Assembly (NCBI GenBank): GCA_003435055.1
Contig: QUMM01000017.1
Location: 1-64,000, forward strand
Length of the DNA stretch: 64,000 nt
Direction: 5' to 3'
Origin: Lachnospiraceae bacterium OF09-6
GTDB lineage: Bacteria > Bacillota > Clostridia > Lachnospirales > Lachnospiraceae
A model generated the notes under the pieces. That model saw only the letters and a list, made by a program, of their open reading frames with translations, made no database searches and had not been told where the DNA came from. A program made the position numbers and the translations under genes. This document shows, one piece after another, positions 1,717-18,105 of this stretch. How positions within the stretch are numbered: the stretch's first letter is position 1; every line of letters starts with the position of its first letter.

Positions 1717-1722
1717 CTCATA

Positions 1723-2121
1723 TCATTCCTTTTTCTGGTTTTTGAACTCTTTTATCATCGTTTCCAACTCACTAATGACCTTATCTCTGTCTCCATCCAG
1801 TTCTTCAAGCAGCGCAACCGTGACCTTAGATATAGAACTTTTTTTCAGATGCATAAGAGAAGCCAACCTAGCTACGTATTCTTCTTTTGTTAATGTTGGT
1901 CTGAACTGCCTTGCATACCTGTTTCCATACAATACTGAGCCACAAGTTTCAATCAGCCCTTTTTCCTGCATTGATTTTAGCATAATGAAAAGATAGCTGC
2001 TTTTCCAGTCGGCTCCATTAGCATATTCTGCTAATTCTAAGCTGGTCATTGGTCTGTTTTCCTTCCAGAATATCTCCATTAACTCACTTTCATTTGTCGT
2101 CAATATCTTTTTTGTATCCAC
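1723..2121 (-). CDS. BlaI/MecI-family transcriptional repressor
   Basis: A protein of about 132 residues with a winged-helix N-terminus (ESELMEIFWKENRPMT is the usual BlaI opening) and a helical dimerisation tail ending in charged residues. The family binds operators as a dimer and is inactivated through its M56 partner. The start is set at GTG (position 2121) because a good GAGGTGA precedes it; an in-frame ATG ten codons upstream has no such site. It is the first gene of a two-gene operon with the M56 sensor. A consensus promoter lies directly upstream, so autorepression is likely but not shown. Confidence 0.85.
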   Translation of the reverse strand: MDTKKILTTNESELMEIFWKENRPMTSLELAEYANGADWKSSYLFIMLKSMQEKGLIETCGSVLYGNRYARQFRPTLTKEEYVARLASLMHLKKSSISKVTVALLEELDGDRDKVISELETMIKEFKNQKKE

Positions 2122-2141
2122 TTTTCTCACCTCATAATTGA

Positions 2142-2171
2142 ATCTTATCACCCCAAAATATCAGCTGTCAA
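2142..2171 (-). promoter_or_regulatory. Sigma-A promoter of the BlaI/M56 operon
   Basis: TTGACA (2166-2171) and TAAGAT (2142-2147) are 18 bp apart on the minus strand, ending about 20 bases before the repressor start. A BlaI operator would be expected to overlap it, but I could not pick out a convincing one. Confidence 0.65.
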
Positions 2172-2270: not shown

Positions 2271-3455
2271 TTATTTTACTGCTACTTCATAATATTCTGG
2301 CTCTTCTGTTTCCGTATCTCCGTTTGTTGTTTCCTTTCGGAACAATACTGCTTCTACCTCTGAAGGATCAATCACACGGTCAAATGCATATCCGGAAATA
2401 TAGGTATTGCTTTCTTCATCCACATAGCCTGCTGTACCGGGACCGCCGTACAGGTTCATGATGGTGCTTCCATCTTTTAATTTCAAGCCACTTGCAAACG
2501 GTGCTTCTGCATAAGACGTAAATATCTGCATTTCTCCATTTTCATCTTCGTATTCTTCGGTCTGTTCCACGCGTGGAAAATCATAGGTTACACGAATCGA
2601 TACCGGGGAAAGTTCTACGCTGGTAACGGTTGCACCAGAATTTCCTAAATCCTGTGTCACTTCTGTATATCTCGATTCATCTGATCCGCCAAGTGTCATA
2701 TCAAGCGCCCAGGTTCCCTCGATGTCCGGCGTATAGTCTGCTTTCGCCAGACTTCCCAGGTTCTGGAATTCCACATGCAGTTTCTTTCCTATAAAGAAGC
2801 CTTTTTCATCGCTCTTTGCCAGTACCATATGATATTCCAGGCTGCCATCATCCATTACATAATTTTCTATTATGGAACCGTCTGCCTCTGTTTCAAGCTC
2901 TGATCCGTCCGCCTTCACTGCCATGCCATTCTCATCTGAAACTGTGCCGTTATAGAAACTGCCACCCCAGCTAATATCATCTTTTCCGTCTACCGTAACC
3001 GATATATTTTCAAATCCAGGCTGTACTCCTTTTTCTACAGAGTATCCATCCACCTTAAAGGAAAGATATGTATAATAATTATCGGTGATGCTCTGCTGTG
3101 CTGTTACGGTTACACCCACATCTGTAACCGATGCATCTGAAAATGCCGCCATGCCATTTTCTTCCAGATTTTTCTGCTGCTCTTCGGAAATACGCAGTTC
3201 TTCTTTCAAGCCTTTGCTCCAGCCTGTATAAGCCGCATAAGCCGTTGCCGTTCCCACTGCCAGAGTTGCTGCAAGCGCAATCATTGCATATTTCTTTTTC
3301 GATCTTTTCACCGGTTTCTGATATGTCACTACTTTATCCCCCTTCTTTTTCGCCTCGTTTCGAATCTGTTCAAATGCCTCGTTTGCTTTTTCTGCTACAA
3401 TATCCGGGATCTCTATATCCTGCTGCAACGTATAAATCGTATCGTTCTTGCTCAT
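2271..3455 (-). CDS. DUF4179-like membrane protein, likely anti-sigma partner
   Basis: A 394-residue single-pass protein. A cytoplasmic N-terminus of about 55 residues ends in KRSKKK, followed by one transmembrane helix (about 57-75) and a large acidic extracellular domain of beta-rich sequence. This is the layout of DUF4179 proteins, which sit beside ECF sigma factors in Firmicutes and are thought to hold the sigma factor at the membrane. The start codon overlaps the sigma stop (ATGA), showing translational coupling. The anti-sigma role is inferred from layout and context. There is no zinc-finger HxxxCxxC motif, and the extracellular ligand is unknown. Confidence 0.7.
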   Translation of the reverse strand: MSKNDTIYTLQQDIEIPDIVAEKANEAFEQIRNEAKKKGDKVVTYQKPVKRSKKKYAMIALAATLAVGTATAYAAYTGWSKGLKEELRISEEQQKNLEENGMAAFSDASVTDVGVTVTAQQSITDNYYTYLSFKVDGYSVEKGVQPGFENISVTVDGKDDISWGGSFYNGTVSDENGMAVKADGSELETEADGSIIENYVMDDGSLEYHMVLAKSDEKGFFIGKKLHVEFQNLGSLAKADYTPDIEGTWALDMTLGGSDESRYTEVTQDLGNSGATVTSVELSPVSIRVTYDFPRVEQTEEYEDENGEMQIFTSYAEAPFASGLKLKDGSTIMNLYGGPGTAGYVDEESNTYISGYAFDRVIDPSEVEAVLFRKETTNGDTETEEPEYYEVAVK

Positions 3456-3966
3456 CCTTCTGCCCTCCTGTGTTTCAGTTCAAAGGTTTCTGTCAGGCGG
3501 TCACGCCCTCTTGCCAGCCTGCTCTTTACGGTTCCTTCCGACAATTCCAGAATCTGGCTGATCTCACTGACCTTAAATCCTTCCACGTAATAAAGCATCA
3601 TTACCAGCCTGTACTTTTCCGGAAGCGAATCCAGTGTCTGCTTCCATTCAATGTTGTCAAACTCGTTTTCCCGATACCCTGTATCTGCTGCCATTTCTTC
3701 CGGTGAAACCATTTTATTCTTTCGAATCAGACCATAGCATTTATTTACCAGAATCCTAGTCATCCAGGTACGGAAATAGTGATTATGTTTCAAACTCCCC
3801 AGCTGTTCCCAGCATGTCAGTATCGTTTCTGAGATTGCATCTGCAATGTCCGCATCCTGGGATAAAATCGATCTTGCAGTTTTATACATATTCTGCATCT
3901 GGGACTGCATCAGATCCGTAAATGCATCCGGATCACCCTTTTTGCTTTCTGCACTAAATCATTCAT
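3452..3966 (-). CDS. ECF-type RNA polymerase sigma factor (frameshifted)
   Basis: A sigma-70 family factor of about 171 residues once one base is restored. Region 2 is seen in the stretch with ETILTCWEQ and RTWMTRILVNKC, and region 4 in SLPEKYRLVMMLYYVEG and SEGTVKSRLARGR. An uninterrupted frame gives only the last 152 residues. The first codons (MNDLVQKAKKGDPDAF) lie in the next frame, after an AGGGG ribosome site. The break falls in a run at about 3936-3943 and needs one extra base. It is coupled to the downstream DUF4179-like gene, the usual sigma/anti-sigma pair. Its targets are not evident here. Confidence 0.75.
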
Positions 3967-4121: not shown

Positions 4122-4514
4122 TTATTTTTTGCTCTTTCTTGCAAGAAAGATACTGGTCGGTCCATCTGCACCGCCGATGATTGCTGTTTCCGTTTCGTCC
4201 TGCTCACTGTCCGTATCACTATTTTCAGAAATCTGATCTCCCTGTGATACATCCGGTATCTGGAATCCCGTCAGGTTTCCATCACTGTCCCGTAATGCAA
4301 ATAGATACGTCACATTGTCCTCTGTATCATTTTCTGTCTCTTCTGTTACTTCCGGCTCTGCATTTTCTTCCGCATTTATATAGGAATCGCCCTGTGCCGC
4401 ATCTTCTGTAAGTGAAAAATAATTTTCGTCTTCATAGCATAAAACTGTATTATCCTCTATGCTGATAAAATCCTCCAGAAATACTACCTGTTTCCTCTTC
4501 GCTATGATATTCCT
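4122..4514 (-). pseudogene. 3' remnant of a gene ending in an IIGGADGPTSIFL motif
   Basis: A 130-codon open frame without a convincing start codon or ribosome site, beginning 16 bases after the stop of the AAA-ATPase gene. The sequence is very acidic (many Glu, Asp, Asn), then has YLFALRDSDGNLTGFQIP, and ends in AIIGGADGPTSIFLARK. The last motif resembles the conserved core of Na+-translocating decarboxylase beta subunits, but nothing else of that polytopic protein is present. The frame just upstream (with KEYHSEEE) may be the continuation after an indel. It reads as the surviving 3' end of a lost gene. The 155 bases between it and the sigma gene hold nothing recognisable. Confidence 0.45.
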
Positions 4515-4529
4515 TTATAGTAATTTGTA

Positions 4530-6146
4530 TTATCTAAAAAGTTCCTGTACTTTACACGCATGTACTTTTGTCTTCTTATCATATCCAATTCCGACTGCAA
4601 GAATTTTTCCCGTATATAATGATTTTTCCCCTATTTTCCCTTGGAATTTCAAAGCATAGTTTTTATCTATAATTTGTTGAATTGCCTCTTCTGGTGTATG
4701 GTCTACTTTTAGTTCCAGAATCAGACAATCTGCCGTCTGATCATAAGGATAAAAAATAAAATCTACATATCCAACGCCTGCTTTTTCTTCCCGTTCTACA
4801 CGGTATAAATCCCGTGCTGCAAGATAAATCAAATTCACGATCGCAGAAAGTTCTGTTTCATGATTATAAGACAACAACGGAACTTCCGTGTTATGCACAT
4901 ATTCCAAAATTTCATTCATCGTTTTAGTATCTTGATGCAGTGTTGCATACAACATCCTTTCTGACTCATGTGCCAAACGGTATACATAACCCAAAGAAGA
5001 TTCTTTCCTCAACATAGCCGCAAATTTATCCATTAATTCTTTATTTGGAATACTGACCTTTCCATTTTCATAATTTAAAAATCCATATACAACCATCGCT
5101 GAAAAAATTTCATCTCTTGTCGTAAGCTTCATGGACGTGGCCGCATATTCCTGAATTTGCGCCGGAACGGCTTCCCCTGCTATCATGAGAGCCAGATCAT
5201 TGCGTACATCATCAATATTATGTTCAATATAATAATAAATTTCATCATAAGGACCAGAACTTGTCCAATATGAGGCAAGATTGTTGTTTGTAAGTGCAAA
5301 AACAACTGACCTTGGATTGTACACACTTTCTCCTCGAAAAGTATGATAACCATTGTACCATAGCCTTAGTCCATCACGACTCACATTTCTATGTGCTGTA
5401 TTTTCTTCATAACGCTGATACAATTCATCCACTTCCGGATCTGTAAAGCCAAAAGAATCGCTATATTTTTCCTCTGAAATCATCGTATATTCCATGAACA
5501 TATTGAGTTCAGAACCACTCGAATATTTTGCGATTGGAAGAATGCCCGTAATATATGCAAGCAATACATATGGTCTGTCTTTCAGCAGGCTGCGCAAAAA
5601 TCGTAAATATTCTCTCTTATCTTGTTCCGTAACAAAATCCTGGTGAAAAATAAAATCCCACTCATCAAACACAAAAATAAATCTTGCATTCATATCAGAA
5701 GCATAGATTTCACTTAAAACATCCCAGACTGCCTCATCCTCCGTAATTTCAAGATTTGGATATTCTCTTCGAAGATCCCGGATCAACCTGTTTTCAATCC
5801 TATCAATATATTCCTGATAGGAGTTACAACGCTTGGGAAGATCGTTAAATGAAATATGAATAACAGCATATTGGCTCTGGTATTTCATGTAATCTTTATT
5901 TGCTGATATTTTACATTTGCTGAATATATCATTTGCATTTTTCGCTCTGGAAAAAAATGCTGCTATCATGTTTGCCATAACCGTTTTTCCAAATCTCCGC
6001 GGTCTTGTGATGCAAATATAGTTATTTCCCTCATTTATGATGGGAAACAACTGCTCCAGCATCAAGGTTTTATCTACAAAATATGGTTTTACAGTTTCAC
6101 TTTTATACAGAGTGTATGCCGCTGTCCCATTTAAATAGATTCCCAT
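4530..6146 (-). CDS. AAA-ATPase-like protein with PD-(D/E)XK nuclease-fold tail
   Basis: A 538-residue protein of the type found in many copies in gut Bacteroidetes and Firmicutes (AAA-ATPase-like N-terminus plus PDDEXK_9 C-terminus). The N-terminus has YFVDKTLMLEQL and a Walker A-like RPRRFGKT at about residues 48-55. FVFDEWD is the Walker B-like strand. The last 80 residues contain GYVDFIFYP and LILELKV, matching the D...ExK core of the nuclease fold. The start is placed at the ATG after AAGGAG rather than at the ATG seven codons upstream. It is a single gene with its own promoter. The biological role is unsettled; mobile-element or defence links are often proposed for the family, but nothing here confirms either. 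Confidence 0.8.
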   Translation of the reverse strand: MGIYLNGTAAYTLYKSETVKPYFVDKTLMLEQLFPIINEGNNYICITRPRRFGKTVMANMIAAFFSRAKNANDIFSKCKISANKDYMKYQSQYAVIHISFNDLPKRCNSYQEYIDRIENRLIRDLRREYPNLEITEDEAVWDVLSEIYASDMNARFIFVFDEWDFIFHQDFVTEQDKREYLRFLRSLLKDRPYVLLAYITGILPIAKYSSGSELNMFMEYTMISEEKYSDSFGFTDPEVDELYQRYEENTAHRNVSRDGLRLWYNGYHTFRGESVYNPRSVVFALTNNNLASYWTSSGPYDEIYYYIEHNIDDVRNDLALMIAGEAVPAQIQEYAATSMKLTTRDEIFSAMVVYGFLNYENGKVSIPNKELMDKFAAMLRKESSLGYVYRLAHESERMLYATLHQDTKTMNEILEYVHNTEVPLLSYNHETELSAIVNLIYLAARDLYRVEREEKAGVGYVDFIFYPYDQTADCLILELKVDHTPEEAIQQIIDKNYALKFQGKIGEKSLYTGKILAVGIGYDKKTKVHACKVQELFR

Positions 6147-6221
6147 CGTTTTTCTCCTTTTTCGCATTGTCTGAAATTTAATGTTCTTATTGAGCTATAT
6201 CCTCCAATAAAATATGATTTC

Positions 6222-6357: not shown

Positions 6358-7224
6358 TCAGCTATACATTTGCAATATGTTTACATATCCCCAACCGAAT
6401 ATGGTATCATACCCCGGATCTCCTGCATCTACTGCGATTCCTTTCAGATATTCTTCCGCTTTTCCTTTTGTATGATTCTCATTTGGCACTTCAGACAGAT
6501 AATTTGCTAATATGCCACTAATTCTGGGTGCAGCATAAGAAGATCCCTTCTCGCCCTGATAATTGCCATCTGCGGATACAAATACAGCATCACTTTGCAG
6601 ATACCAGAGAGAGCTAACTGGCTCTCCCTGTTCATTCAGATCTGCACCGGACACCCCTATCACCTCTTTCCATGCAGCCGGGTAGACCTCGCTGCCAAGC
6701 GGTGTAGACAGTGACAAATTTCCCGCTGCCGCTACCAGCAACACATTCCGTCCAGCCGCATATGTCATGGCTTCATGCAGTTCTTCATTATCCTGATTTA
6801 AAGTCCAGCTCATATTGATGATATCAGCATCATATATGTCCACTGCATCATAAATAGCCTGAATAATAGCCGAACCTATATCTGTGGCCTTCGAGTGCTT
6901 ACCACCAGTTTCCTGCGTATTTTGAGTCAACGCCATACTACTGTCAAAACATTTCAACATATAAATATCTACATCTGGTGCCGTTTCTTTTAGAATTTCA
7001 TATACACAAGTTCCATGTCCTTCCTGATCCGTCAGATCCTCTGTACCCTCCAGATAATTCTTTCCCTGTCCGTCTGGCAGATTACAGCCAGAATCCAGAA
7101 TGCAGACGGTTACCGCATTGGATGCTTCTTCTAATGGTTCCATTTCTGCCGATGCCCCCACTGTAAGGGGCATCGTTAGAAAGATACCAAACAGAATACC
7201 TGCATAAAAGTGTGTTCTTCTCAT
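6358..7224 (-). CDS. Secreted subtilisin-like serine protease (S8)
   Basis: A 288-residue protein with a signal peptide (MRRTHFYAGILFGIFL to an ASA cleavage-like site) and a compact S8 domain. The catalytic Asp is in ILDSGC (about D44), His in EGHGTC (H70), the oxyanion Asn in AAAGN (N169) and the nucleophile in GSSYAAP (S229, replacing the usual GTSMA). No propeptide of normal length is visible, and no wall anchor. Its start overlaps the stop of the giant InlB-repeat gene by four bases (ATGA), so the two are translated together. It may process the giant protein or a neighbouring surface partner; that is inference. The mature domain is short for the family. Confidence 0.85.
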   Translation of the reverse strand: MRRTHFYAGILFGIFLTMPLTVGASAEMEPLEEASNAVTVCILDSGCNLPDGQGKNYLEGTEDLTDQEGHGTCVYEILKETAPDVDIYMLKCFDSSMALTQNTQETGGKHSKATDIGSAIIQAIYDAVDIYDADIINMSWTLNQDNEELHEAMTYAAGRNVLLVAAAGNLSLSTPLGSEVYPAAWKEVIGVSGADLNEQGEPVSSLWYLQSDAVFVSADGNYQGEKGSSYAAPRISGILANYLSEVPNENHTKGKAEEYLKGIAVDAGDPGYDTIFGWGYVNILQMYS

Positions 7225-10200
7225 GAGTCACCACTATTCTGTACCGGTTCCATGCTCTCAGCAGACTGAATTTCTGCCGCCTGCGTCTCGACTGGCTGTG
7301 GAGGAGCAGAAGTCTCTGCCTGAGGTGCCGCCGTTTCCGGTGCTGGTGGCTCCGTTTGTGGAGCGGATGTTTCTGTCGCAGGCTGCTCCGTTTGTGGTGC
7401 CGCTGTTTCAGGCTGCGGGGCTGTCGTTTCCGGTGCAGAAGTCTCTGGTACCTGCGTCTGTGATGGCTTTGTTTCAGGGGTCTGAGTTTCAGGGGTCTGA
7501 GTCTCAGGCACAGGTGTTTCTGTGGTCGGACTCTCTGTCATGGTTGTCTCCGGTACAGCAAGATCAGATGTTTTACTTTCCGGTTCAGAAGATTCGGTAT
7601 CCTGTGATGAAGTCTGTGATTCCGTAATGGTTTCTGTTGAAAGTTCTGTTTCAGGCTCCATTATCCGGGCTTGTATTTTAGACCTTGCTCTGGTATTGCC
7701 TGTTGCATCTAATGTGATACTCAAATCATTTGGTAATTTTGCATCGGTAAAACTGAATTTAAAAGATTTTTTATCCGGCTGCTCTACCTTAATTCCGTTT
7801 GTAACCGTATTTAATGCTGAAATCTTCTTTTCAATTTGTGCGCCTCCTTCGTTTTTCCATTTTATTGTCGCAGACTTAAAAACTCCAGAATCATATGTTC
7901 CTTTAAGTTCGATTGTAAACGTAGTGTTACCCGGATTCCAGTTCTTCAATATTCCCGTTCTATCCTCGAGTTTGCCTGTACCAATTGTAGGAGCTTTCGC
8001 AATGATTGAATAATGTATTTCGATCGTATTTCTTATTGTTACTTTACAGTTTTTACTTGCGTCAGATGTATACGTATTAGTATCAGAAGGAATAAATCTA
8101 ACGGATTTTTCACCGCTTTGCATAGGAATATAAGTACTGTCTCCCCATACCCAGCTACCATCCAGTACTTCATTTTCGATGTATGGATTATATGCTTTTA
8201 CTGAATCGGCTTTGATCTCCGCATTGGCTATTGTGTGATTTCCACCCTGGTACATGATAGTATCACCCATTTCTCCCACTACATATGGCGTTGTTTTTTG
8301 TACCGTAACCTCAACATATATTTCATAACTGTCCAGATTATTCTGATTATTGCCCGGTGTATATTTTACTTTTATGCTGTGTTTTCCAACTGCCAATGGC
8401 TGTGCCACTTTCTTTTCACCAGATCCAGATTTCTCAAGCAAAAGTTCATCACCATTCGCATTTTTTTCTGTTACCCAACTCCAGATTCCATTTCCTGATT
8501 CTGTTTCTGATACAGACGGATATGTTACCTTAAAGCCCGCTAACATATCTTTTGCAGAATACATTGTCTGGATATCCGAAACATTATTTATTGTTTCTTT
8601 TTTAGAATCACCGGATGTCAGTTTCTGTCCGTAAGAAATAGCTTTCACACTTCCTGTTGTAACCTGAGGCACTGCTTTCAGAATATTGAACTTACGTATA
8701 ATGTCATCCTGTCCCAATCCATTTTCTGTATTTCCACGTCTTTCCATCCATACAGTATTTTTGGTATCCTCCAATCTCAATTTCACATCATAAGTGCCTG
8801 CATCTTGTCCACCATTATTTTCAAGAACAATGTATCCATCGCTGTCAGCATTTGGAAAGGCTGGTTTCTGCGTCTGTCCATTATAATATACTGTTGGAAT
8901 TTCCGGAACATATACATTTTGATAACTCAAAGGAATCGTAACCTCAGCAGTAAACACTGCAAATCCATCTTCGTATTTTTCATCCGCTATAAAATATGCA
9001 GTATGAGAAGCTCCTACATCCGGTTTTTCAGCCAGGACTTTTTCATTCCATTTCCATGTTCCCTGTACTTCTTCTCCCCGGTATTTTACAGAACCTGCCA
9101 AATGAATATCTCCCATGAGCGTTCCGTAAGAATATGAGGTTTTCTCGGTACCTACATTAGAAATCGTTACATCTCTTTGCTGCACCTGTGTAATAGTGGC
9201 CGTCGATGTCGCTGTAGCATTTACCACAACATACGCATCTTCTCCATATAATTCGTTTGAATTTTTAGATTTATCTAATGTATATCCACTGTATTCTACC
9301 CGTTTATCCGGTTCTGCTTTCGCTGATTCAAAGCTCCATGTTCCGCCGGACAAGAATTCTTCTATATCTGTAAACTCTTTTTTTGTGGCATCCCCCTTTT
9401 CGTCTGCATAAAACAATTTTGCGCTTCCTGTTGTCGATGTATCATTATATCGATAAACTCTGCTGTCTGCTGCCGCAGTCACGTATAACCCGATTTGCGT
9501 CAATACAGAGGCTTTTGTTTCAGCTGGTGCGAAATATTCCTCACAGTCAGAATCTGGGGTGAAAATCACTTCATATTCATTTTCTTCTGTACCATTATTT
9601 CTGCCAAATGGAATCTGATCTGCATTCTTCCAGCTATAAGTTCCGGAAGCATTCTGTTCATAATCAAGATCCATATTTGTATAAAGCGCTATGCCTTTTC
9701 CAATGGTTACTCCTTTTGTAATTTCGTTCAATTTCTGTCCAAAGGTTCCTTTCGGTATATCTGGAACAATAAATTTTTCTGCTACCATTTTCTGCAGCTG
9801 CGCCTGGTAATTTGCAATTGTAACCGGATGCCTTTCCCCTGCATCATCCGTATACACTGCTTCTACCTCAAATGTATAAATCTGCTTCTGCTTATCAGAC
9901 CTGCGATCTGTCTTGGTACTCTTTATCTGTATTTCAATCCTGTCACTATAAGCACCAATTTCTCCAGGTCGATAATTGCCAGCCGTACCATCTTCTCTTA
10001 TGAGTTTCTTTAGATAATCTTCCGCATCCTGCGCAACCTTAGGATCTATTATCTTGTATGGATCATCCATAGCCGGTCCACCACCTGCCAGATAAGCGAC
10101 CAGCTCTGATTCATATGGATGAGTCTGTGCCAGTACCTGTATTCTTTCCAGAATGTTCAATACCGAATCAGAACTGATCCAGGTTGCCGTGTAAACACGA

Positions 10201-13200
10201 TTTCCCATAGAACCTTTCGGAATATGTACTTCCATGGTTGGCTGGTCAAGTCCCGTTCCTGTCCAGCCCGCAAATTCATACTTTTCTCTGGTTGGCTGTT
10301 TCAGAATAATCTCGTCGCTTTCTATATTGTAAGATACCGGATTATTCAGATTGTCGAAAGCTCTCTTGTATTCTATGGAATACTCAATCGGTGACCATAC
10401 TGCAGTATAGCTGCGATCACCGCCGGCTCCCGGCTCTATCATAACCTCTACCGTTGGTTCCTCCAGACCGGTTCCCGTCCATCCATCGAATGTATAGCCT
10501 TCTCTGGCCGGCGCAGTCAGTGTGATCGTATCTTCTGTGGTGTAGGTTGCAGGATTTTCCGCCGCTTCTGTTCCACCTGCAAGATCGTAGGTAATCGCAT
10601 AATTGGTTGCCTTCCAGCCCGCATAAAGGGTTGTATTACCGGTAATCGTATCGTTTTGCACATCAAAAGCTACGGTTGCTGCCTTATTTTTGTACCATCC
10701 GGTAAAGGTATAGTACTGTCTTTCCGGTGCATCCGGAATGATCGTGATTGGATATCCTACAAATCCCGTTGTTTCCGCATAGAGCGGTGCATCCGTTCCA
10801 TCATTGCGGTCAAAGTTTACGGCAACCATCTTCGCCCAGCGCGCATAGAGATCCATGCCACCTGACAAACGGTATGTTTCCAGATTGATCGGTTCACCTG
10901 AGAATTCGTCATTGGTATACCATCCCATGAACTGATATCCGTCATATTCCGGAATCTGAATATTCAGCAGTTTTTCTCCCGGTCTTAACGTAGAATAGGT
11001 AAATGCAAAATATTCCTGTGTATCATTTTCAAAAATCAGATGTTCTTCCGGTGCATCTTCTGCCCCCGTCAGATATGCTGCCTTTCCTTTTGCAGGTGTA
11101 AAATGCACAGTTACGTCACAGGTCCAGTCTGCATATAAGGTCACATCTGTCAGCAATTTTTCGCCGAACTGATATGCTTTCCCACTGCCATCTGCAGATG
11201 TGTACCAGCCACGGAACGTCAGTCCGTCAATCTTCGGATCTTCCACCTTCTTTGTTACTTCATTTTCTGCAAAATAGACTTTTTTATAGGTTCCATAGCC
11301 ACCATACTGGTACAGATAAGTAATGCTGTGCAGCCGATAAGCACGCAGTACAATAGACAGATCGCTGTTTGGCATGATAAAGCTTATTTTATTGTCACTG
11401 ATCTGGAACGTCACATCTTCATTTTCTGAAGTTACTTCCAGTCCGCCATAGCCTTCTTCCAGTTCTACCTGAAGCTCCACTTTACTTCCTGGTTTGATGC
11501 CATCTTCTCCATTCAGCTTCTCATCTGTAAACTGATATCCTTTCACTCCTTCACCAAGTTGAATGCCCAGTATTGGCTTGCCAATGGTAATGTCAAAGTA
11601 AACATCCTGCTGATATTCCCGTCCTGTCAGGGTAAATCCGGTCTTTGCTGCCGCTTCCTGATTTACTGACATCATCAGAGGCTGCCTGCTGCCATCGAAT
11701 TGTGTACGTCTTGTTTCCAGAAGATAACTGTGTTCTGCTTCTTTTGTAAATGTCAATGATTTACCGTATGCACTCGGTGCTACCTGGAAGGTATAAGTAT
11801 CCTCTGCATCGTCCCCTTTCAGATTGATATGATAACGAATCGAATCCTCATATCCTTCAAATCTGCGGACATACAGATAATAGGTCACATCATACGCATC
11901 TGTCTGTGGACGCACATCATAACGCACAACTCCATTGGCAGGTGTCATATAGCAGAAGCTGCTGATCTGCGGCACACTATACTGTATCACACCGCTCTGG
12001 GAAGGAGATGGTTCCATCCATTCACAGGTGTACTGACTGATTTCCGGATATTCACTCTGTACCTTTGCAACAATTTCTCCCAGATTCAATGTTCCCGTCG
12101 CAGTTGGCTCATAAGCTCTTCCCAGATTATGTATAGAGGTAAAGGATGTCTCATACACCACTTTGTTATCCCAGTCAGCTGCACTCAGCCCCCAGTTTCT
12201 TGCACACCAGTCATTCAATACAATCTTCACATTCTGTGTCGTTGTTGCCAGCGCACATTTCTTTTTCAAATGGAACGTCTTGGTCTGTTTCTTCACCAGT
12301 GCCGAGGAACTGTTATTCTCATAAGTAACTTCCAGATCCAGCTCTGCCTCTTCGCACAACTGTTCTTCTGCAACCTTTTCATCCATATAGATGAATCCCG
12401 GATTCTGTCCTTTCGATGAATCGCCCACGGTAAATAATGCATTTCTGGCATCTCCTTCCGGGATTGCTTCTCCATTTATCATAAGATTCTTCACCGATAA
12501 AGTGATCTTTACACCTTTACCGGATGATTTTGCGCAAAGAAGATTGTTCTTCTGGCATTTTCCGCCCATCAGATTCCATGTCTTCATCGGAATGGTTTCA
12601 AATCCAAATACTGTCTTATGATCCGCATTCGCACTGGATTTTTCCCAGAGCTTTGCCAGTTCCTCTTCATCCATATAGCTCATGCTGCTGGATACGGAAG
12701 TGGACCACAATGGCCAGCGTCCGGTATAGACCGTCCAGTTCTTGCGTATGGTCTTGAAAATCAATCTTACTTTCAGACCAAGGGATACTACAACATCAAT
12801 ACCTACCTCAAACTTTAATGCTCCAAGATTCGTATTGGCTCCGCTCAAAAGATTCGTGGTATTGAAGAACAGACCTGTCAGCTCTGCATAGGCATACAGG
12901 CTTCCGGTTATATAGGCTGTGGCAATTCCACACATGGTTACTGACAACGTCAGCCGCAGTCCCACGCGGACTCCTACCTTTCCAATCAGATAAATATTGT
13001 TGGTTACGGAGCTCTCCAGCTTCTCCGTATAAGAGCTTCCTTTGAATTTCAGGAAATTGTATTTGAAACCGATGCGTTCCCCGCTTCTGGCTACGATCTC
13101 TACGCCAAAGGTTGCCAGGACTCCCACCTGTCCCACCAGATGAACCTCAAAGCCTACGGTAATAATTCCATAGAAAGAGAATCTCAGATTCAGCAGCAGG

Positions 13201-15791
13201 ATATCAAAAAGATCATTATATTTCAAAGAGGTTGCCACGATGGAGTTCATCGTATCCATCAGATCTGCTACAGACTGATCATAGGATTCATAATCACCCT
13301 CTTGGATTCCTTCCGGTTTGACAATCTCACTTAAGGTATCCTTTGCTTTTGAGAATACGGTTGTTTTTCCACCAGTAGTAGCGGTAACAGTCAGTTCAAT
13401 CTTCGACATGGACCGGATCGTCACAGACATATCGATCCAGACTTTTCCACCGTCTACATTCGTCTTCACGGACAAAGACTGGGTAAAGGACAGCTTCGGC
13501 TGAACAGTCAGCATGTTCTTACCATCTTTTTTAATATTGGCAGTCGCAGAAATGCTGATGTTTGCCGTCACTTCACTGCCTGATACTTTCAGCTTCACCA
13601 CCGGCCTGCCAGGTGTCAGAGTTGCCGTCATACCTGCCAGCGCATACGTGCCTTCCCCGTACAGGTCATCCAGCATATCCTGCGTCTCCGGCGCACTCAT
13701 GACGGATACCAGCATCTGAGCTTTCAGTTCTTCATTTTCTTCTACCTGCCTGGAAAGTCTGGATGTCAGCACTTCCAGATCTTCCTCCGACAGCTGCTGA
13801 TCCATCTCCACATTGTCCGTAACGTGAACATCAAAGTCTGCCAGATAATCCTCCGGGCTGGCATATCCATAAGTCAGATGTATCCCATCTGCCGTATCTT
13901 CCACACTCAGGATCTGTGCAAACAGTACATATCCATCAAAAGCCCCTTCTGTATATGCATCGATATTTTTTTCATCTCTGCCAATCTCACCATCATAGAA
14001 GGCTACTATATCACCTTCCTGATATGTGGTATCACTGTTTTTTACCAGAATTTCGCCAGGAATATACGCTGCCTCTTCCACTTCCCCGGCATCTGCACCA
14101 TCAGGATCTGCTACCGCCTGATTGCTTTCTGTCTCTGTTTCTGATCCCTCTTCTGCGACAGTTTCCAATTCTGTTTCTTCCATTTTCTCTGTCTCAGAAA
14201 ATGCTTCTGTCTCTAAATCCGTCTCTTCTTCAGATGCTTCATCCACAGATACCACCGGCTGATATTCCATCACATCATCCCAGAGTACGTAGGTCATATC
14301 ATCAGAAAAGCCGACTACTTCTACCTGCTTTTTATATACAGATACCACTGCCGTATCGGTATCATCTGAATAATCTGCAAAATGCACACCTCCAGATACA
14401 ATAATGCTGAATGTTGCTCCCGGCTCAAATCCTGTCTCACCATCTTTTTCATAATAAGATCCAGAAATAGCAAACCCATCTTCAGTTTCTTTAATATCCA
14501 GCTCCGGATCCAGCGCACCTGAGCCAGCCTCCACACGGACATTCTTTTTCACTTCATCCAAAGTCATTTCTTCCTCTGTCCGAAGTGGAATGGTTCCCTG
14601 CCAGTCAAAATCTGCCAGGTCCGCTGATGTTCCGTCTTTTTCTGTTTCCTGCGCCTCTTCTGATACAAAGAAAGCATACAGCGTCAGAGACTCTTCCAGT
14701 GGCTCTGTATAGGAAAATGCCGTGGTACATTCCGGATCTGTACACCAGCCGCCAAATGTATACCCTTCCTTCTCAGTATAAATCTCATTGATCGGTCTGG
14801 TTAACAGGTTTTCTCCTTTTGCGAAGATCTGTGGCTCCAGTTCACGGCCTCCCATGGTATCAAAGGTTACTTCGATTGCCTCCGCTGCATCCACAAATCT
14901 TGCATAAAGTGTAGTCTCTCCTTCTGCCACTGCAAACTGAGAGCAGTTTTCCGTAAACGCCTCATCTTTATACCAGCTTGTGAAAATAAATCCATCTTTT
15001 TCCGGATTCTGTTCCGGGAAAGGAATGGTTTCCCCAGGCTTCGCCATTTTACTGTCATAGATTTGTCCGTCTGCTATAAAAGTCACCTGATAAGATGACA
15101 GCACCAGTTCCTCCTGCTGACCAGATGCCAGTGTCATCTGATTTCCTTCTGGCATTTCAAGCTGAACCGACTGTCCAGATTCATTGATCACAGAACATGT
15201 GGCTCTGACCGTTACCTCTTCTAATGCACCTGTCACGCGTATGATACCCAGTGCGCCATTGCCTTCCAGCAGGACACTTCCTTCTCCTTCCAGAAAGATT
15301 TCCGGAATCTTTGTCTCTGCATCCATACGCAGCGTCACACTCTGGTCCTTTGCAGTCTGAACATACAGCTGTTCCAGTTCTGTTCCATTTAGCCGCAGTT
15401 CACTGACCTGATCTGCTGTAAATCTTTTTGCTTTCACATCTGACAGATCCAGCTTATCTGTAGCAGACGCTGCAATTTCACCATAGTCCAGCCCAGACAA
15501 TGTACACTCTTTTGCAGTAATCAGCAGATTCTTCGATTCATCCTGCGTCCGAAGCGCGTCTGCTTCCTGTTGTGTAGCAGCCGTCTCATATTCCCCTCCC
15601 CATTCTTTTACACGATCAGGCAATATGATCTCTTCCGCTGTTGTCTCGGTCTCCCGTGTCGATCTATGATCCTGTGCTGCATGGCTTTCCGTCTGCAGTG
15701 ACTGTGCCAGCCCGGTGCTCCCCATTGTACTGGCCAGCATGACCACTGCCATCAGCATAGCGATCCAACGTTGTCTTCGTTTTCTCTTCAT
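7221..15791 (-). CDS. Giant secreted InlB-repeat protein, 2,856 residues
   Basis: The start follows a strong GGGAGGAAAGG site. The signal peptide (KRKRR, hydrophobic core, cleavage around residue 30-38) is followed by a leucine-rich-like stretch, two InlB B-repeats at about 235-377 (GYTFGGWC type), and an acidic Glu/Thr-rich linker. A central region at about 860-1015 has strongly alternating hydrophobic residues. Further InlB-type repeats lie at about 1490-1870 (FTGWYKN, FDGWTGTGL), then Ig-like modules and a Ser/Thr/Pro/Glu tail from about 2705 with PETQT-type repeats. No LPXTG motif, sortase tail or final transmembrane helix is seen, so the protein is probably released or held non-covalently. 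It has its own promoter region behind a terminator and is co-translated with the subtilase. The function is unknown; adhesion or surface display is likely. Confidence 0.85.
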   Translation of the reverse strand: MKRKRRQRWIAMLMAVVMLASTMGSTGLAQSLQTESHAAQDHRSTRETETTAEEIILPDRVKEWGGEYETAATQQEADALRTQDESKNLLITAKECTLSGLDYGEIAASATDKLDLSDVKAKRFTADQVSELRLNGTELEQLYVQTAKDQSVTLRMDAETKIPEIFLEGEGSVLLEGNGALGIIRVTGALEEVTVRATCSVINESGQSVQLEMPEGNQMTLASGQQEELVLSSYQVTFIADGQIYDSKMAKPGETIPFPEQNPEKDGFIFTSWYKDEAFTENCSQFAVAEGETTLYARFVDAAEAIEVTFDTMGGRELEPQIFAKGENLLTRPINEIYTEKEGYTFGGWCTDPECTTAFSYTEPLEESLTLYAFFVSEEAQETEKDGTSADLADFDWQGTIPLRTEEEMTLDEVKKNVRVEAGSGALDPELDIKETEDGFAISGSYYEKDGETGFEPGATFSIIVSGGVHFADYSDDTDTAVVSVYKKQVEVVGFSDDMTYVLWDDVMEYQPVVSVDEASEEETDLETEAFSETEKMEETELETVAEEGSETETESNQAVADPDGADAGEVEEAAYIPGEILVKNSDTTYQEGDIVAFYDGEIGRDEKNIDAYTEGAFDGYVLFAQILSVEDTADGIHLTYGYASPEDYLADFDVHVTDNVEMDQQLSEEDLEVLTSRLSRQVEENEELKAQMLVSVMSAPETQDMLDDLYGEGTYALAGMTATLTPGRPVVKLKVSGSEVTANISISATANIKKDGKNMLTVQPKLSFTQSLSVKTNVDGGKVWIDMSVTIRSMSKIELTVTATTGGKTTVFSKAKDTLSEIVKPEGIQEGDYESYDQSVADLMDTMNSIVATSLKYNDLFDILLLNLRFSFYGIITVGFEVHLVGQVGVLATFGVEIVARSGERIGFKYNFLKFKGSSYTEKLESSVTNNIYLIGKVGVRVGLRLTLSVTMCGIATAYITGSLYAYAELTGLFFNTTNLLSGANTNLGALKFEVGIDVVVSLGLKVRLIFKTIRKNWTVYTGRWPLWSTSVSSSMSYMDEEELAKLWEKSSANADHKTVFGFETIPMKTWNLMGGKCQKNNLLCAKSSGKGVKITLSVKNLMINGEAIPEGDARNALFTVGDSSKGQNPGFIYMDEKVAEEQLCEEAELDLEVTYENNSSSALVKKQTKTFHLKKKCALATTTQNVKIVLNDWCARNWGLSAADWDNKVVYETSFTSIHNLGRAYEPTATGTLNLGEIVAKVQSEYPEISQYTCEWMEPSPSQSGVIQYSVPQISSFCYMTPANGVVRYDVRPQTDAYDVTYYLYVRRFEGYEDSIRYHINLKGDDAEDTYTFQVAPSAYGKSLTFTKEAEHSYLLETRRTQFDGSRQPLMMSVNQEAAAKTGFTLTGREYQQDVYFDITIGKPILGIQLGEGVKGYQFTDEKLNGEDGIKPGSKVELQVELEEGYGGLEVTSENEDVTFQISDNKISFIMPNSDLSIVLRAYRLHSITYLYQYGGYGTYKKVYFAENEVTKKVEDPKIDGLTFRGWYTSADGSGKAYQFGEKLLTDVTLYADWTCDVTVHFTPAKGKAAYLTGAEDAPEEHLIFENDTQEYFAFTYSTLRPGEKLLNIQIPEYDGYQFMGWYTNDEFSGEPINLETYRLSGGMDLYARWAKMVAVNFDRNDGTDAPLYAETTGFVGYPITIIPDAPERQYYTFTGWYKNKAATVAFDVQNDTITGNTTLYAGWKATNYAITYDLAGGTEAAENPATYTTEDTITLTAPAREGYTFDGWTGTGLEEPTVEVMIEPGAGGDRSYTAVWSPIEYSIEYKRAFDNLNNPVSYNIESDEIILKQPTREKYEFAGWTGTGLDQPTMEVHIPKGSMGNRVYTATWISSDSVLNILERIQVLAQTHPYESELVAYLAGGGPAMDDPYKIIDPKVAQDAEDYLKKLIREDGTAGNYRPGEIGAYSDRIEIQIKSTKTDRRSDKQKQIYTFEVEAVYTDDAGERHPVTIANYQAQLQKMVAEKFIVPDIPKGTFGQKLNEITKGVTIGKGIALYTNMDLDYEQNASGTYSWKNADQIPFGRNNGTEENEYEVIFTPDSDCEEYFAPAETKASVLTQIGLYVTAAADSRVYRYNDTSTTGSAKLFYADEKGDATKKEFTDIEEFLSGGTWSFESAKAEPDKRVEYSGYTLDKSKNSNELYGEDAYVVVNATATSTATITQVQQRDVTISNVGTEKTSYSYGTLMGDIHLAGSVKYRGEEVQGTWKWNEKVLAEKPDVGASHTAYFIADEKYEDGFAVFTAEVTIPLSYQNVYVPEIPTVYYNGQTQKPAFPNADSDGYIVLENNGGQDAGTYDVKLRLEDTKNTVWMERRGNTENGLGQDDIIRKFNILKAVPQVTTGSVKAISYGQKLTSGDSKKETINNVSDIQTMYSAKDMLAGFKVTYPSVSETESGNGIWSWVTEKNANGDELLLEKSGSGEKKVAQPLAVGKHSIKVKYTPGNNQNNLDSYEIYVEVTVQKTTPYVVGEMGDTIMYQGGNHTIANAEIKADSVKAYNPYIENEVLDGSWVWGDSTYIPMQSGEKSVRFIPSDTNTYTSDASKNCKVTIRNTIEIHYSIIAKAPTIGTGKLEDRTGILKNWNPGNTTFTIELKGTYDSGVFKSATIKWKNEGGAQIEKKISALNTVTNGIKVEQPDKKSFKFSFTDAKLPNDLSITLDATGNTRARSKIQARIMEPETELSTETITESQTSSQDTESSEPESKTSDLAVPETTMTESPTTETPVPETQTPETQTPETKPSQTQVPETSAPETTAPQPETAAPQTEQPATETSAPQTEPPAPETAAPQAETSAPPQPVETQAAEIQSAESMEPVQNSGDS

Positions 15792-15833
15792 TTCCTTTCC
15801 TCCCGTTCACTCTCTCATGCATAGACAAAGTTA

Positions 15834-15849
15834 TTCTATACTTATAGAA
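15834..15849. promoter_or_regulatory. Perfect palindrome upstream of the giant gene
   Basis: TTCTATA-CT-TATAGAA is a perfect 7-bp inverted repeat with a 2-bp centre, about 45 bases before the giant gene start. It could be an operator or part of a promoter used by the neighbouring sigma factor. No obvious TTGACA-type -35 box is seen at the right distance. Confidence 0.4.
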
Positions 15850-15898
15850 AGTCCCAAAAAGGAAAAACCTTTCATCTGATTGCTGATTTTTTAATAAA

Positions 15899-15930
15899 AA
15901 ATCACTTACGGATTTCTCAGTAAGTGATTT
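15899..15930 (-). terminator. Terminator after the PrsW-like gene
   Basis: An 11-bp stem (AAATCACTTAC with GTAAGTGATTT) overlaps the last codons of the PrsW-like gene and is followed on the minus strand by a T-rich stretch. It separates the regulatory genes from the giant gene. Confidence 0.7.
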
Positions 15931-16544
15931 CGTAATAAACGTATGATATATACAAGCATAATACAAATGACAGGAAACAGGTATCCGCATCTCTGCCATG
16001 TCCCTCCGGCTGTCACCAGCAGATTATAGATTCCATGAAAGACAATGCAAAATCCAAGAATGCCGATGGTTCCAATTACCCGAAGCCATAACCTTTGAAA
16101 TACAAAACCTATACCATATCCGGCAGCAATTCCACCACACAGATGCATGGCTCCGGCAGCAATTCCGCGAAGAAAGAGAAAGTAAAAATTCTGAGCACCA
16201 TTTTCTGCAAGATAGCAGATATTTTCAAAAGTAGCAAATCCTATCGCTATGAACATTGCCACAGATAAGATTTCTTCCTGCTGCGGTTCAAAGATCAAAA
16301 GCCACAGCAAAAATGGCAGAAACTTCAGAATTTCTTCACAAACTGGCGTAATCTCCACCGATGTAACCAGTGCGTCAGCACCATAGATTGCCATAAAAAA
16401 ACTGGTTACATAAGCGGCCAGGAGACAGCAGCACATCCCACAAAGAATAAATCCCAAATATTCTTTCTGTTTTCCCTTCACAAAAAGAAGCGCAAGCAGA
16501 AATGGCACACCAATACAGACCAGAATATTCTCCAGATAACTCAT
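15906..16544 (-). CDS. PrsW-family glutamic intramembrane protease
   Basis: A polytopic membrane protein of 212 residues with the PrsW signature set: PVCEEILKF (E70, E71), ATFENICY (E107), GAMHLCGG (H134) and FHGIYN (H170). PrsW of Bacillus subtilis cuts the anti-sigma factor RsiW within or near the membrane, and PrsW of Clostridioides difficile acts on RsiT. Here the gene overlaps the preceding membrane-protein gene by four bases and ends an operon that starts with a sigma factor. A role in releasing that sigma factor is a strong inference from context. Its likely substrate is the two-helix protein at 17143-17481. Confidence 0.85.
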   Translation of the reverse strand: MSYLENILVCIGVPFLLALLFVKGKQKEYLGFILCGMCCCLLAAYVTSFFMAIYGADALVTSVEITPVCEEILKFLPFLLWLLIFEPQQEEILSVAMFIAIGFATFENICYLAENGAQNFYFLFLRGIAAGAMHLCGGIAAGYGIGFVFQRLWLRVIGTIGILGFCIVFHGIYNLLVTAGGTWQRCGYLFPVICIMLVYIIRLLRNHLLRNP

Positions 16545-17146
16545 TCACGTTCCTCCTTTTTCAGCCAGAAAAACAAACTACACATGGTTGCCATCAGAAG
16601 GAAGTCTACTGCAAAATAAAGGTTGAACTGTGTATAATCTCTTATATGTTCTGACACAATATAAAGGAGCAGCTGCCATACAATCAATCCAATCATAGAA
16701 TAACTGATTCCTCTCCTGTTCTCTTGCACATCAAGTACCGCGTGATAAAAGATCACACCGATTACCATAGCAAAAATAATGGAAAAAGGATACGATGGAC
16801 CAAAAATCCGCTTTCCTATGACAACTGCCACCTCTGTTGCAGTTAATACACAGGCTACTATAGAATGCCGCTTCTGACATTTTCCCGTTATCATCAGACA
16901 CAGTGCCAACAAGAACAGATATGATGCCATCCAGGCAATCTCTGACACGTAGAAGACCTGCGGCACTTTTCCCATAATTACCAGATAAATCAGATAATAT
17001 AAGGTCCCCATAGCAAAACAGGCATAACATCCGGACAGAATCCAGAATCTGCGATCCTGCTTACGTATTCCATGAATCAGAGAAAACAGAGCAAACAACA
17101 GAAACAGGCCAACCTGAATACCATTATCTATCACTTCAAAACTCAT
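16541..17146 (-). CDS. Polytopic membrane protein of unknown function
   Basis: A 201-residue protein with six or seven hydrophobic segments, few charged loops and a short charged tail (FFWLKKEERE). I recognise no family. It overlaps both neighbours by four bases (ATGA at each junction), so it is made together with the two-helix protein and the PrsW-like protease. This suggests a stable membrane complex, possibly the sensor or a scaffold for the protease. No catalytic motif stands out. Confidence 0.7.
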   Translation of the reverse strand: MSFEVIDNGIQVGLFLLFALFSLIHGIRKQDRRFWILSGCYACFAMGTLYYLIYLVIMGKVPQVFYVSEIAWMASYLFLLALCLMITGKCQKRHSIVACVLTATEVAVVIGKRIFGPSYPFSIIFAMVIGVIFYHAVLDVQENRRGISYSMIGLIVWQLLLYIVSEHIRDYTQFNLYFAVDFLLMATMCSLFFWLKKEERE

Positions 17147-17481
17147 AACTTTCGCTCCGCCTGATCTTTTCTGCGTTCTTTGATACGATATAATAAAATC
17201 GTCGCAATACAGCCCAAAGCAAAGGAAAAAATTCCAACTACAATGTACCCCAGCTGAGCCTGACTGGCAATCAGGCTGGCTGCACCTGAATTATGCGTTA
17301 CAGATCCAGATACAGCATGTCCCATGATTCCTGGCATACCAATACCAAGTGCGATAATCAGCACCATACAGGCAGCTACACATCCAACTTCTATCCAACG
17401 CTGTTTTCTTTTTTGCTGCTCTTTCTGAATCTCTTCTGCCCTGCTAAAGATCAGATTCATTCGTTCTTCATTGGTGCGCAT
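17143..17481 (-). CDS. Two-helix membrane protein, candidate anti-sigma factor
   Basis: 112 residues. A charged cytoplasmic N-terminus (MNLIFSRAEEIQKEQQKRKQRW) is followed by a transmembrane helix at about 32-50, an extracellular loop of about 25 residues rich in Ser, Gly and Ala, a second helix at about 76-98, and a basic cytoplasmic tail (RIKERRKDQAERKL). It overlaps the end of the sigma gene by 14 bases, the usual position of an anti-sigma gene. No zinc-finger motif is present. The anti-sigma role and cleavage by the PrsW-like protease are inferred from gene order, length and topology. Confidence 0.65.
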   Translation of the reverse strand: MRTNEERMNLIFSRAEEIQKEQQKRKQRWIEVGCVAACMVLIIALGIGMPGIMGHAVSGSVTHNSGAASLIASQAQLGYIVVGIFSFALGCIATILLYRIKERRKDQAERKL

Positions 17482-18021
17482 AGGTAAATCCCTCCCTTTC
17501 CAGAATTTTCTTTATACTTTTTTTCGCTCTGTGAGCAAGATTGGTAATCTGTGGTACACTTTTGCCCATAACCCTTCCTGCCTCTTCATATTTCATCTCT
17601 TCAAAATACAGCAGGTACAGAACTTCCCGATACTCCTTTTTCACCTGTTCTAATGCCTGGAACAGCTGGCGGTTCTGTTCCTTCCTTAGCAGATCTGCAT
17701 CCGCACTCATGACTCCGGACATCTCAAATCCTGTCTGATGCAGTTCCAGTAATGGAAATCTCTTTTTCTTATTATGACGCAGCGCCAGATTTCGCGATGT
17801 TTTATAAAGGTAGGCTTTAAAGCAATGGTCCTCTGTAACCGGTCGTTTTTTCGCAAACATCTGGCAAACGCCTCAATCATCAAATCCTCCGACTCATGAT
17901 AATCAGAAATATACCCACTGATATAACGAATCAGTGAATCTCCATATCGTTTCACCAATTGCTCCGCAGCTTCTTTTTCACCAAGAAAATAACGCTCATA
18001 TAACCGTTCATCTGTCAGCAT
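17468..18021 (-). CDS. ECF-like RNA polymerase sigma factor (frameshifted)
   Basis: A sigma-70 family protein of about 184 residues after one base is restored. The first part (YFLGEKEAAEQLVKRYGDSL...SEDLMIEAFARC) is region 2. The second frame continues with FAKKRPVTEDHCFKAY, then region 4 (QVKKEYREVLYLLYF and YEEAGRVMGKSVPQITNLAHRAKK). The break is at about 17849, where the TTT run needs a fourth T. The start is chosen at ATG 18021 after AGGAG, not at the earlier ATG inside the promoter -10 box. It leads an operon with the candidate anti-sigma factor, a polytopic membrane protein and a PrsW-like protease. The giant surface protein downstream is the natural target. Confidence 0.75.
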
Positions 18022-18076
18022 TTTTTCTCCTGTCTTATCTTTTAAACTATTCTTCCCATATAAATAGGCTAGAATC

Positions 18077-18105
18077 ATTATAGCCTATGTTGTCTGTGAA
18101 CTCAA
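18077..18105 (-). promoter_or_regulatory. Promoter of the sigma/PrsW operon
   Basis: TTGAGT (18100-18105) and TATAAT (18077-18082) are 17 bp apart, ending about 55 bases before the sigma start. The -10 box lies inside a GGCTA...TAGCC inverted repeat, a possible operator. Confidence 0.65.

Follow-up and report, generated by a model that had tools for sequence, protein, structure and literature searches.

It appears that a small, movable cassette in gut bacteria controls a giant surface protein through a private promoter. The copy described here lies at positions 6358 to 18105 of a 64,000-nucleotide stretch of DNA from Lachnospiraceae bacterium OF09-6 (GCA_003435055.1, contig QUMM01000017.1, positions 1-64,000), which as a whole we call the window. 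Comparison with related loci makes it probable that an extracytoplasmic function (ECF) sigma factor, small two-helix membrane proteins (hairpins), a seven-helix membrane (7TM) protein and a PrsW-family protease form a dedicated signalling cassette with a single target, together controlling that one promoter. A first-pass annotation of this DNA had described six co-directional genes, closely packed, with a terminator and a palindromic promoter region between PrsW and the giant gene, and had proposed that the sigma factor drives the giant protein and an adjoining subtilase. The genes, overlaps, terminator and palindromic region stood, while the single intact sigma gene did not; of the interpretation, the co-occurrence of sigma and PrsW with giant genes and a shared promoter motif were borne out, the subtilase as a fixed partner was not. 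Beyond that annotation we found a frame break in the sigma gene, a second hairpin that is usual in relatives and not seen here, and exchange of the giant behind a constant cassette. All genes of the locus are on the minus strand and co-directional, and rpmF (named by eye) precedes the sigma gene. The features are as follows.

18077-18105, minus strand: sigma-70-like promoter, TTGAGT-17-TATAAT, preceding the sigma gene, from a consensus scan
17707-18078, minus strand: N-terminal sigma piece (region 2), with the frame broken; ATG at 18021 is the likely start (by eye)
17468-17860, minus strand: C-terminal sigma piece (region 4), in a frame different from that of the region 2 piece
17143-17481, minus strand: hairpin 1, two-helix membrane protein of 112 amino acids (aa), predicted anti-sigma factor
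16541-17146, minus strand: 7TM protein, 201 aa, predicted sensor or PrsW partner
15906-16544, minus strand: PrsW-family intramembrane protease, 212 aa, from a Pfam profile and invariant residues
15898-15931, minus strand: stem-loop resembling an intrinsic terminator, 3' of PrsW, from folding energy against shuffles
15835-15878, minus strand: predicted sigma-dependent promoter of the giant gene with a palindrome inside, from its matrix score
7221-15791, minus strand: giant secreted protein, 2856 aa, with InlB/List_Bact repeats
6358-7224, minus strand: subtilisin-like protease (Peptidase_S8), 288 aa, a local accessory that is not conserved

The conserved block and its promoter motif

We searched the PrsW of the window against 5.8 billion proteins (74 matches) and aligned 34 sequences, the window's included. 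Species genomes were also scanned for PrsW, and the best 80 of 249 relative loci, from Clostridia, were kept; module counts use profiles built here and cover the loci with enough flanking DNA. The sigma gene was found in 65 of 68 loci, hairpin 1 in 64 of 68 and the 7TM protein in 75 of 76, forming a conserved block with PrsW, and a second hairpin gene (hairpin 2) lay downstream of PrsW in 59 of 73. The recurrence of the block in most of the 80 loci exceeds chance. The nearest protein relatives of the window's PrsW are 72-95% identical to it; the best identity in the scan of genome contigs was 57%, and no PrsW above 53% identity was found in 397 genomes of one family, in 64 of one genus or in genera of 8, 47, 5 and 2 genomes. 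The spread is patchy, with a PrsW match in 32 of the 397 sampled genomes of that family, and the sigma-7TM-PrsW block was seen in 21 of the 30 loci listed from them.

Between the PrsW terminator and hairpin 2 we found a motif, G(G/A)TGRRAG-N15-GTNYYT, with constant spacing. An A/T-rich block comes after it, and 39 of 83 gaps gave a match to a regular expression for the motif. ECF promoters have a GGAAC-like -35 element and a GTC/CGT-like -10 element spaced by 15-17 nucleotides, and the layout of the motif fits this. We built a 44-column matrix from 27 unique sites, one of them spurious (the second match in L059), with the window excluded. Its top site in the window was 15878-15835, 44 bp before the giant gene, at 27.0 bits, the next site reaching 5.8 bits over 128 kb on both strands; the maximum in 20 Markov-simulated windows was 12.5 bits. 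Training on either of the two promoter classes alone kept the same top site (26.2 bits with the runner-up at 9.0, and 7.8 with the runner-up at 0.0). The palindromic promoter region that had been pointed out is indeed present, as a 16-nucleotide palindrome, TTCTATAAGTATAGAA, read directly from the sequence. The terminator before it also held up, as a stem-loop of -15 kcal/mol with a z score of -6.1 against 200 shuffles; it is missing from the four sites listed by a consensus terminator scan of the window. We infer that the sigma factor recognizes the motif.

The motif was nearly confined to this position. A pattern search of 18 whole genomes, which hold 20 PrsW genes, gave 23 matches in 16 genomes (4 with the reversed pattern as a control), and 18 of the 23 lay just downstream of a PrsW gene. 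Three further matches preceded hairpin 2-giant units, one inside a cassette as a second copy (G524), one at a contig edge (G002) and one in GAM79 (G523), which brings the matches at cassettes or such units to 21. The remaining two carry one mismatch each and look like chance. In the complete GAM79 genome (second site L139) the hairpin 2-giant unit has its own motif and sits behind a transposase-like gene (by eye); it stands alone, because the single PrsW gene of this genome lies elsewhere, and it is possibly a target served in trans. In the 150 nucleotides before the sigma gene, no matrix site was found in any of 67 loci, the best score being -3.2 bits. As a separate observation, the promoter region of L013 (5419-7264) is duplicated around an inserted gene of the choloylglycine hydrolase family (CBAH-type), with the motif in each copy.

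These distributions bear on a different reading, that the system is a general envelope-stress regulator like SigW-RsiW-PrsW and that the giant gene is one of many targets or a mere neighbour. SigW systems have these same families of PrsW and ECF sigma factor, other genes follow PrsW in some loci, and a degenerate pattern can overlook weaker sites. However, the near-confinement of the pattern to cassettes and hairpin-giant units, and the empty region before the sigma gene, argue against it, and we consider it improbable.

Membrane components and the proposed switch

Hairpin 1 has ends rich in Lys and Arg at both termini and an uncharged loop. Its N-terminal 29 residues contain no Cys and no His, and with them no HxxxCxxC-type zinc domain, and it does not fall among the class I zinc-type anti-sigma factors. 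The two hairpins are paralogous and form two classes, all 149 sequences tested being closest to their own class once a misassigned hairpin 2 (L006) had been removed beforehand. Only the first class was found in the 64-kb window. A few loci without hairpin 1 (for example L032 and L045) retain hairpin 2, so either hairpin may act as the inhibitor. Sequence comparison of the hairpin with solved structures gave eight Protein Data Bank (PDB) matches, the best (E 0.001) among designed coiled coils, which together with the others we judged non-specific.

The 7TM protein has a predicted structure of high confidence (predicted local distance difference test score 93.3), and sequence comparison with solved structures gave no PDB relative. 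Retinal-binding rhodopsins carry a Lys in the middle of helix 7; helix 176-200 here has lysines at its end only, and we rejected a retinal protein. The protease belongs, as had been proposed, to the PrsW family (PF13367; 67.8 bits, cutoff 23.5), and its catalytic-type residues E70, E71, E107, N108, H134, H170 and N174 are invariant in the 34 aligned sequences. It lies below the NCBIfam equivalog cutoff (33.4 against 225 bits), and PDB sequences yielded one chance-level match (E 0.22). The 212-aa open reading frame (ORF) matched no other Pfam family and is not a fusion of the polymorphic-toxin kind.

From these parts we suggest the following switch. At rest, hairpin 1, with its charged cytoplasmic N-terminal helix, would retain the ECF sigma factor at the membrane. 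In response to an envelope signal, which the 7TM protein may receive, PrsW would cut hairpin 1 and release the sigma factor, and the free sigma factor would then transcribe from a single private promoter lying between the PrsW terminator and the following operon. That operon, the predicted target, mostly encodes hairpin 2 and a giant secreted surface protein in relatives, and the giant and the subtilase in the window. Hairpin 2, probably a feedback anti-sigma factor, would reset the switch as the giant is made, and the sigma gene itself would not be under its own promoter motif.

Alternatively, the hairpins, the 7TM protein and PrsW might serve to secrete or process the giant, PrsW and the hairpins acting on the exported protein, with the sigma factor merely co-regulating this apparatus. 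Hairpin 2 lies directly before the giant gene and its class is conserved, and the excerpted text of PMC3482391 proposes PrsW as a processing or export peptidase in polymorphic toxin systems. There, however, PrsW is fused to the toxin, while here it is a separate gene; many giants have signal-peptide-like starts of their own, some carry sortase-like tails (by eye) or SLH or LysM domains, and hairpin 1 is encoded with the sigma factor rather than with the giant. We regard such an apparatus as quite improbable and favour the signalling cassette.

The SigW-RsiW-PrsW system of Bacillus subtilis likewise has an ECF sigma factor, a membrane partner and a PrsW-family protease; the cassette differs in that PrsW lies within the sigma operon, the 7TM protein and hairpins take the place of RsiW, and a private promoter stands before one operon with no motif before the sigma gene. 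In Clostridioides difficile, CsfT and CsfU are said to be connected with PrsW in the 2011 work of Ho and Ellermeier, and they resemble the present case in being clostridial ECF sigma factors with a link to PrsW. CsfT and CsfU are not known to come with a cassette of this kind, a pair of hairpins or a giant as cargo. PrsW is the site-1 protease of RsiW in B. subtilis, according to excerpts of PMC3482391. The polymorphic toxin systems treated in the same excerpts are alike in placing PrsW near variable large proteins with a conserved head and an exchangeable tail; PrsW is fused to the variable protein there, whereas here it is separate and the link appears transcriptional. ECF sigma factors are reviewed in PMC8103513, and the excerpts of PMC9044953 and PMC7438776 both cite Ho and Ellermeier 2011. 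Among open-licence PMC papers we found no description of the cassette. With one sigma factor, one promoter and a pair of anti-sigma-like hairpins, such a design would make dissection of a PrsW system unusually simple, and the cassette could be an orthogonal switch for gut anaerobes.

Giant proteins and their exchange

Co-occurrence of sigma and PrsW with giant surface genes in relatives, the lack of which the first-pass annotation had named as refuting its proposal, holds: a same-strand ORF of at least 700 codons starting at most 1.8 kb past PrsW was found in 39 of 61 loci, compared with 250 of 2650 random upstream points. Pfam was run on 27 of the 52 downstream ORFs of at least 450 codons, selected by a size limit. 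These 27 proteins included 13 with List_Bact repeats, 9 with divergent InlB repeats, 8 with Big_2, 6 with SLH and 6 with fn3 domains; at least one is not of surface type, probably L066 (regulator-like, BTAD). The giant of the window has 2856 aa, seven List_Bact_rpt stretches and a C-terminus rich in Pro, Thr and Glu, as its annotation as a giant repeat protein had implied, and we recognised no anchor in it. InlB/List_Bact repeat surface proteins (PF09479, PF18998) are known from gut Bacillota, and PF09479 occurs in the window giant and in 13 of the 27 related downstream proteins; as a protein the window giant is ordinary, and it is unusual only in that a sigma cassette appears to have it as a private target. 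The cassette would state concretely at what times commensal Clostridia produce some of their largest surface proteins, whose regulation has been little described, and it offers a testable promoter motif.

Blocks of DNA at least 85% identical were shared between genera, and in many pairs they run from about 60-540 nucleotides before the sigma gene to a point close to where the giant gene begins; a few pairs (such as L070/L072 and L036/L052) share far more upstream DNA. In three loci, from records titled Oliverpabstia (L005), Holdemania (L007) and Oscillibacter (L013), the sigma, 7TM and PrsW proteins are 97-100% identical and the DNA is 97-99% identical over most of the cassette, while the giants align over 29 residues only, the signal peptide. 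In L047, L048, L062, L064, L072 and L074 the DNA diverges within or just past the signal peptide. Near-identical cassettes with unrelated giants thus look like a mobile regulatory cassette with exchangeable surface cargo, in which the block from just upstream of the sigma gene to the signal peptide of the giant would move between species constant, the giant behind it being exchangeable. We tentatively extend this, at slightly under even chances, to a plug-in regulator mobile among gut Bacillota, with a constant set of sigma factor, paired hairpins, 7TM protein and PrsW, an orthogonal promoter and a fixed docking point at the signal peptide for exchangeable giants. If true, interchangeable surface proteins would be expressed from one site under the control of a single private signal. 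Exchange of cargo at the signal peptide hints at a way in which surface repertoires become diverse.

The nearest called upstream gene encodes a relaxase in L013, a Lysozyme_like protein in L005 and a CHAP protein in L007, and these adjoining genes suggest that the three cassettes may be on conjugative elements. Among the neighbouring genes scanned, no mobility gene was identified beside the window copy, and database searches did not find PrsW on plasmids or in viral contigs. A PrsW in a fecal 'Bacteriophage sp.' record (MT835688; a second matching record is MT838012) sits in DNA resembling a bacterial chromosome, with gene names assigned by eye, and we rejected a phage carrier.

Several points weigh against a single-target cassette of this kind or limit its reach. 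For the motif, only 46 of 73 loci had a matrix score above 12.5 bits, a matrix trained on a single class gives low scores at several sites of the other, distant clades carry a related variant, GGGGAGA...TGTATCTATATAAGTG (by eye), and some loci show no motif form. Two of the 20 PrsW genes in the whole genomes (G521, G527) have no pattern match nearby, and part of the motif conservation is descent among near-identical cassettes. As to targets, the long downstream ORF is not universal among those 61 loci. Elsewhere the targets differ, being an LD-carboxypeptidase and an oligopeptide-binding protein in L002, in part in L001 and in L024, and sugar-nucleotide genes in L026. Giants are related (59-82%) in L011/L019, L020/L023 and L054/L056, so exchange is not universal. 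Neither Pfam nor NCBIfam gave the hairpins a match to a known anti-sigma family at E<1, and the window copy itself lacks hairpin 2 and has a frame-broken sigma gene.

The window copy, its sigma gene and its neighbours

A single sigma gene extending to 18105, as first annotated, is wrong: regions 2 and 4 occupy two frames, a split that had gone unnoticed. The region 2 piece scored 22.1 bits against PF04542, below the cutoff of 24, with a weak TIGR02937 match, and the region 4 piece scored 43.8 bits against PF08281 (cutoff 25.7). The two regions share one ORF, as in an ECF sigma factor, in nearly all relatives in which both parts were matched and in a close homologue, P0076 (203 aa, intact, 97% identity over the query, from a cluster of 200 member sequences); this is not so in the window. 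Another homologue, P0092, from a Blautia metagenome-assembled genome, is 73% identical. Since the frame is broken, the window copy is probably switched off, unless the break arose in assembly; a true mutation and a small assembly error are both conceivable origins. The overlaps between the first four genes are as described before, with 14 bases between the region 4 piece (17468-17860) and hairpin 1 (17143-17481), 4 between hairpin 1 and the 7TM gene (17143/17146) and 4 between the 7TM gene and PrsW (16541/16544).

The window copy may accordingly be off or decaying. That the locus is a decaying remnant in this genome, with the sigma factor broken, hairpin 2 lost and the giant silent or on another promoter, is suggested by a frame break not seen in close full-length sigma homologues and by the failure to find hairpin 2 in the 64-kb window. 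Against this, the other genes are open, the frame of the giant is intact over 2856 codons, the promoter site is kept and the sigma break may be a small assembly error. We consider decay somewhat unlikely, and a dedicated cassette with a single target remains our preferred reading of the locus.

A heptamer, A_AAA_AAC (17845-17851, minus strand), lies just within the overlap of the two pieces and is in frame with the N-terminal one; it fits the slippery-heptamer rule for -1 frameshifting and may be ordinary coding sequence. On the sequence, a -1 slip there would enter the frame of the C-terminal piece, and the heptamer could leak some sigma product. A programmed frameshift as a conserved device was rejected, because the sigma gene is in one frame in relatives and P0076 is intact. 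The TTGAGT-17-TATAAT element ahead of the gene is weak evidence for a promoter, because it is one of 11 such sites in the stretch, where 6.3 are expected. In Anaerobutyricum hallii DSM 3353 (L022, 8326-8989), the exception among the relatives, the sigma gene is likewise in two pieces. This break is independent, and loss of the sigma factor may be recurrent. In two other sigma homologues, P0075 and P0113, a near-identical remainder is combined with a divergent N-terminal half or an internal deletion; these are natural recombinants or metagenome chimeras.

The subtilase is genuine and its gene shares 4 bases with that of the giant, as reported before. We rejected it as a conserved partner: it was found in none of the 80 loci within the available flanks (tblastn, E 0.01), and among 18 whole genomes only 3 had matches, weak ones of 30-33% identity, none on the PrsW contig. 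The proposal that the sigma factor drives the giant is supported by the shared motif directly before the giant gene; the subtilase is, by this comparison, a local addition.

Directly 3' of the subtilase, at 4530-6167 (minus strand), lies a gene for an AAA-ATPase_like/PDDEXK_9 protein. A short acidic ORF at 4122-4313 (minus strand) ends in IIGGADGPTSIFLA, and that stretch weakly matches the profile of a Na+-pump decarboxylase beta subunit. A second ECF sigma gene, 3452-3910 (minus strand), overlaps the gene for a DUF4179 protein (2271-3455) by 4 bases, and the two are likely a separate sigma/anti-sigma pair. Farther along, a BlaR1-type M56 peptidase and a BlaI-type repressor form a pair at 589-2151 (minus strand).

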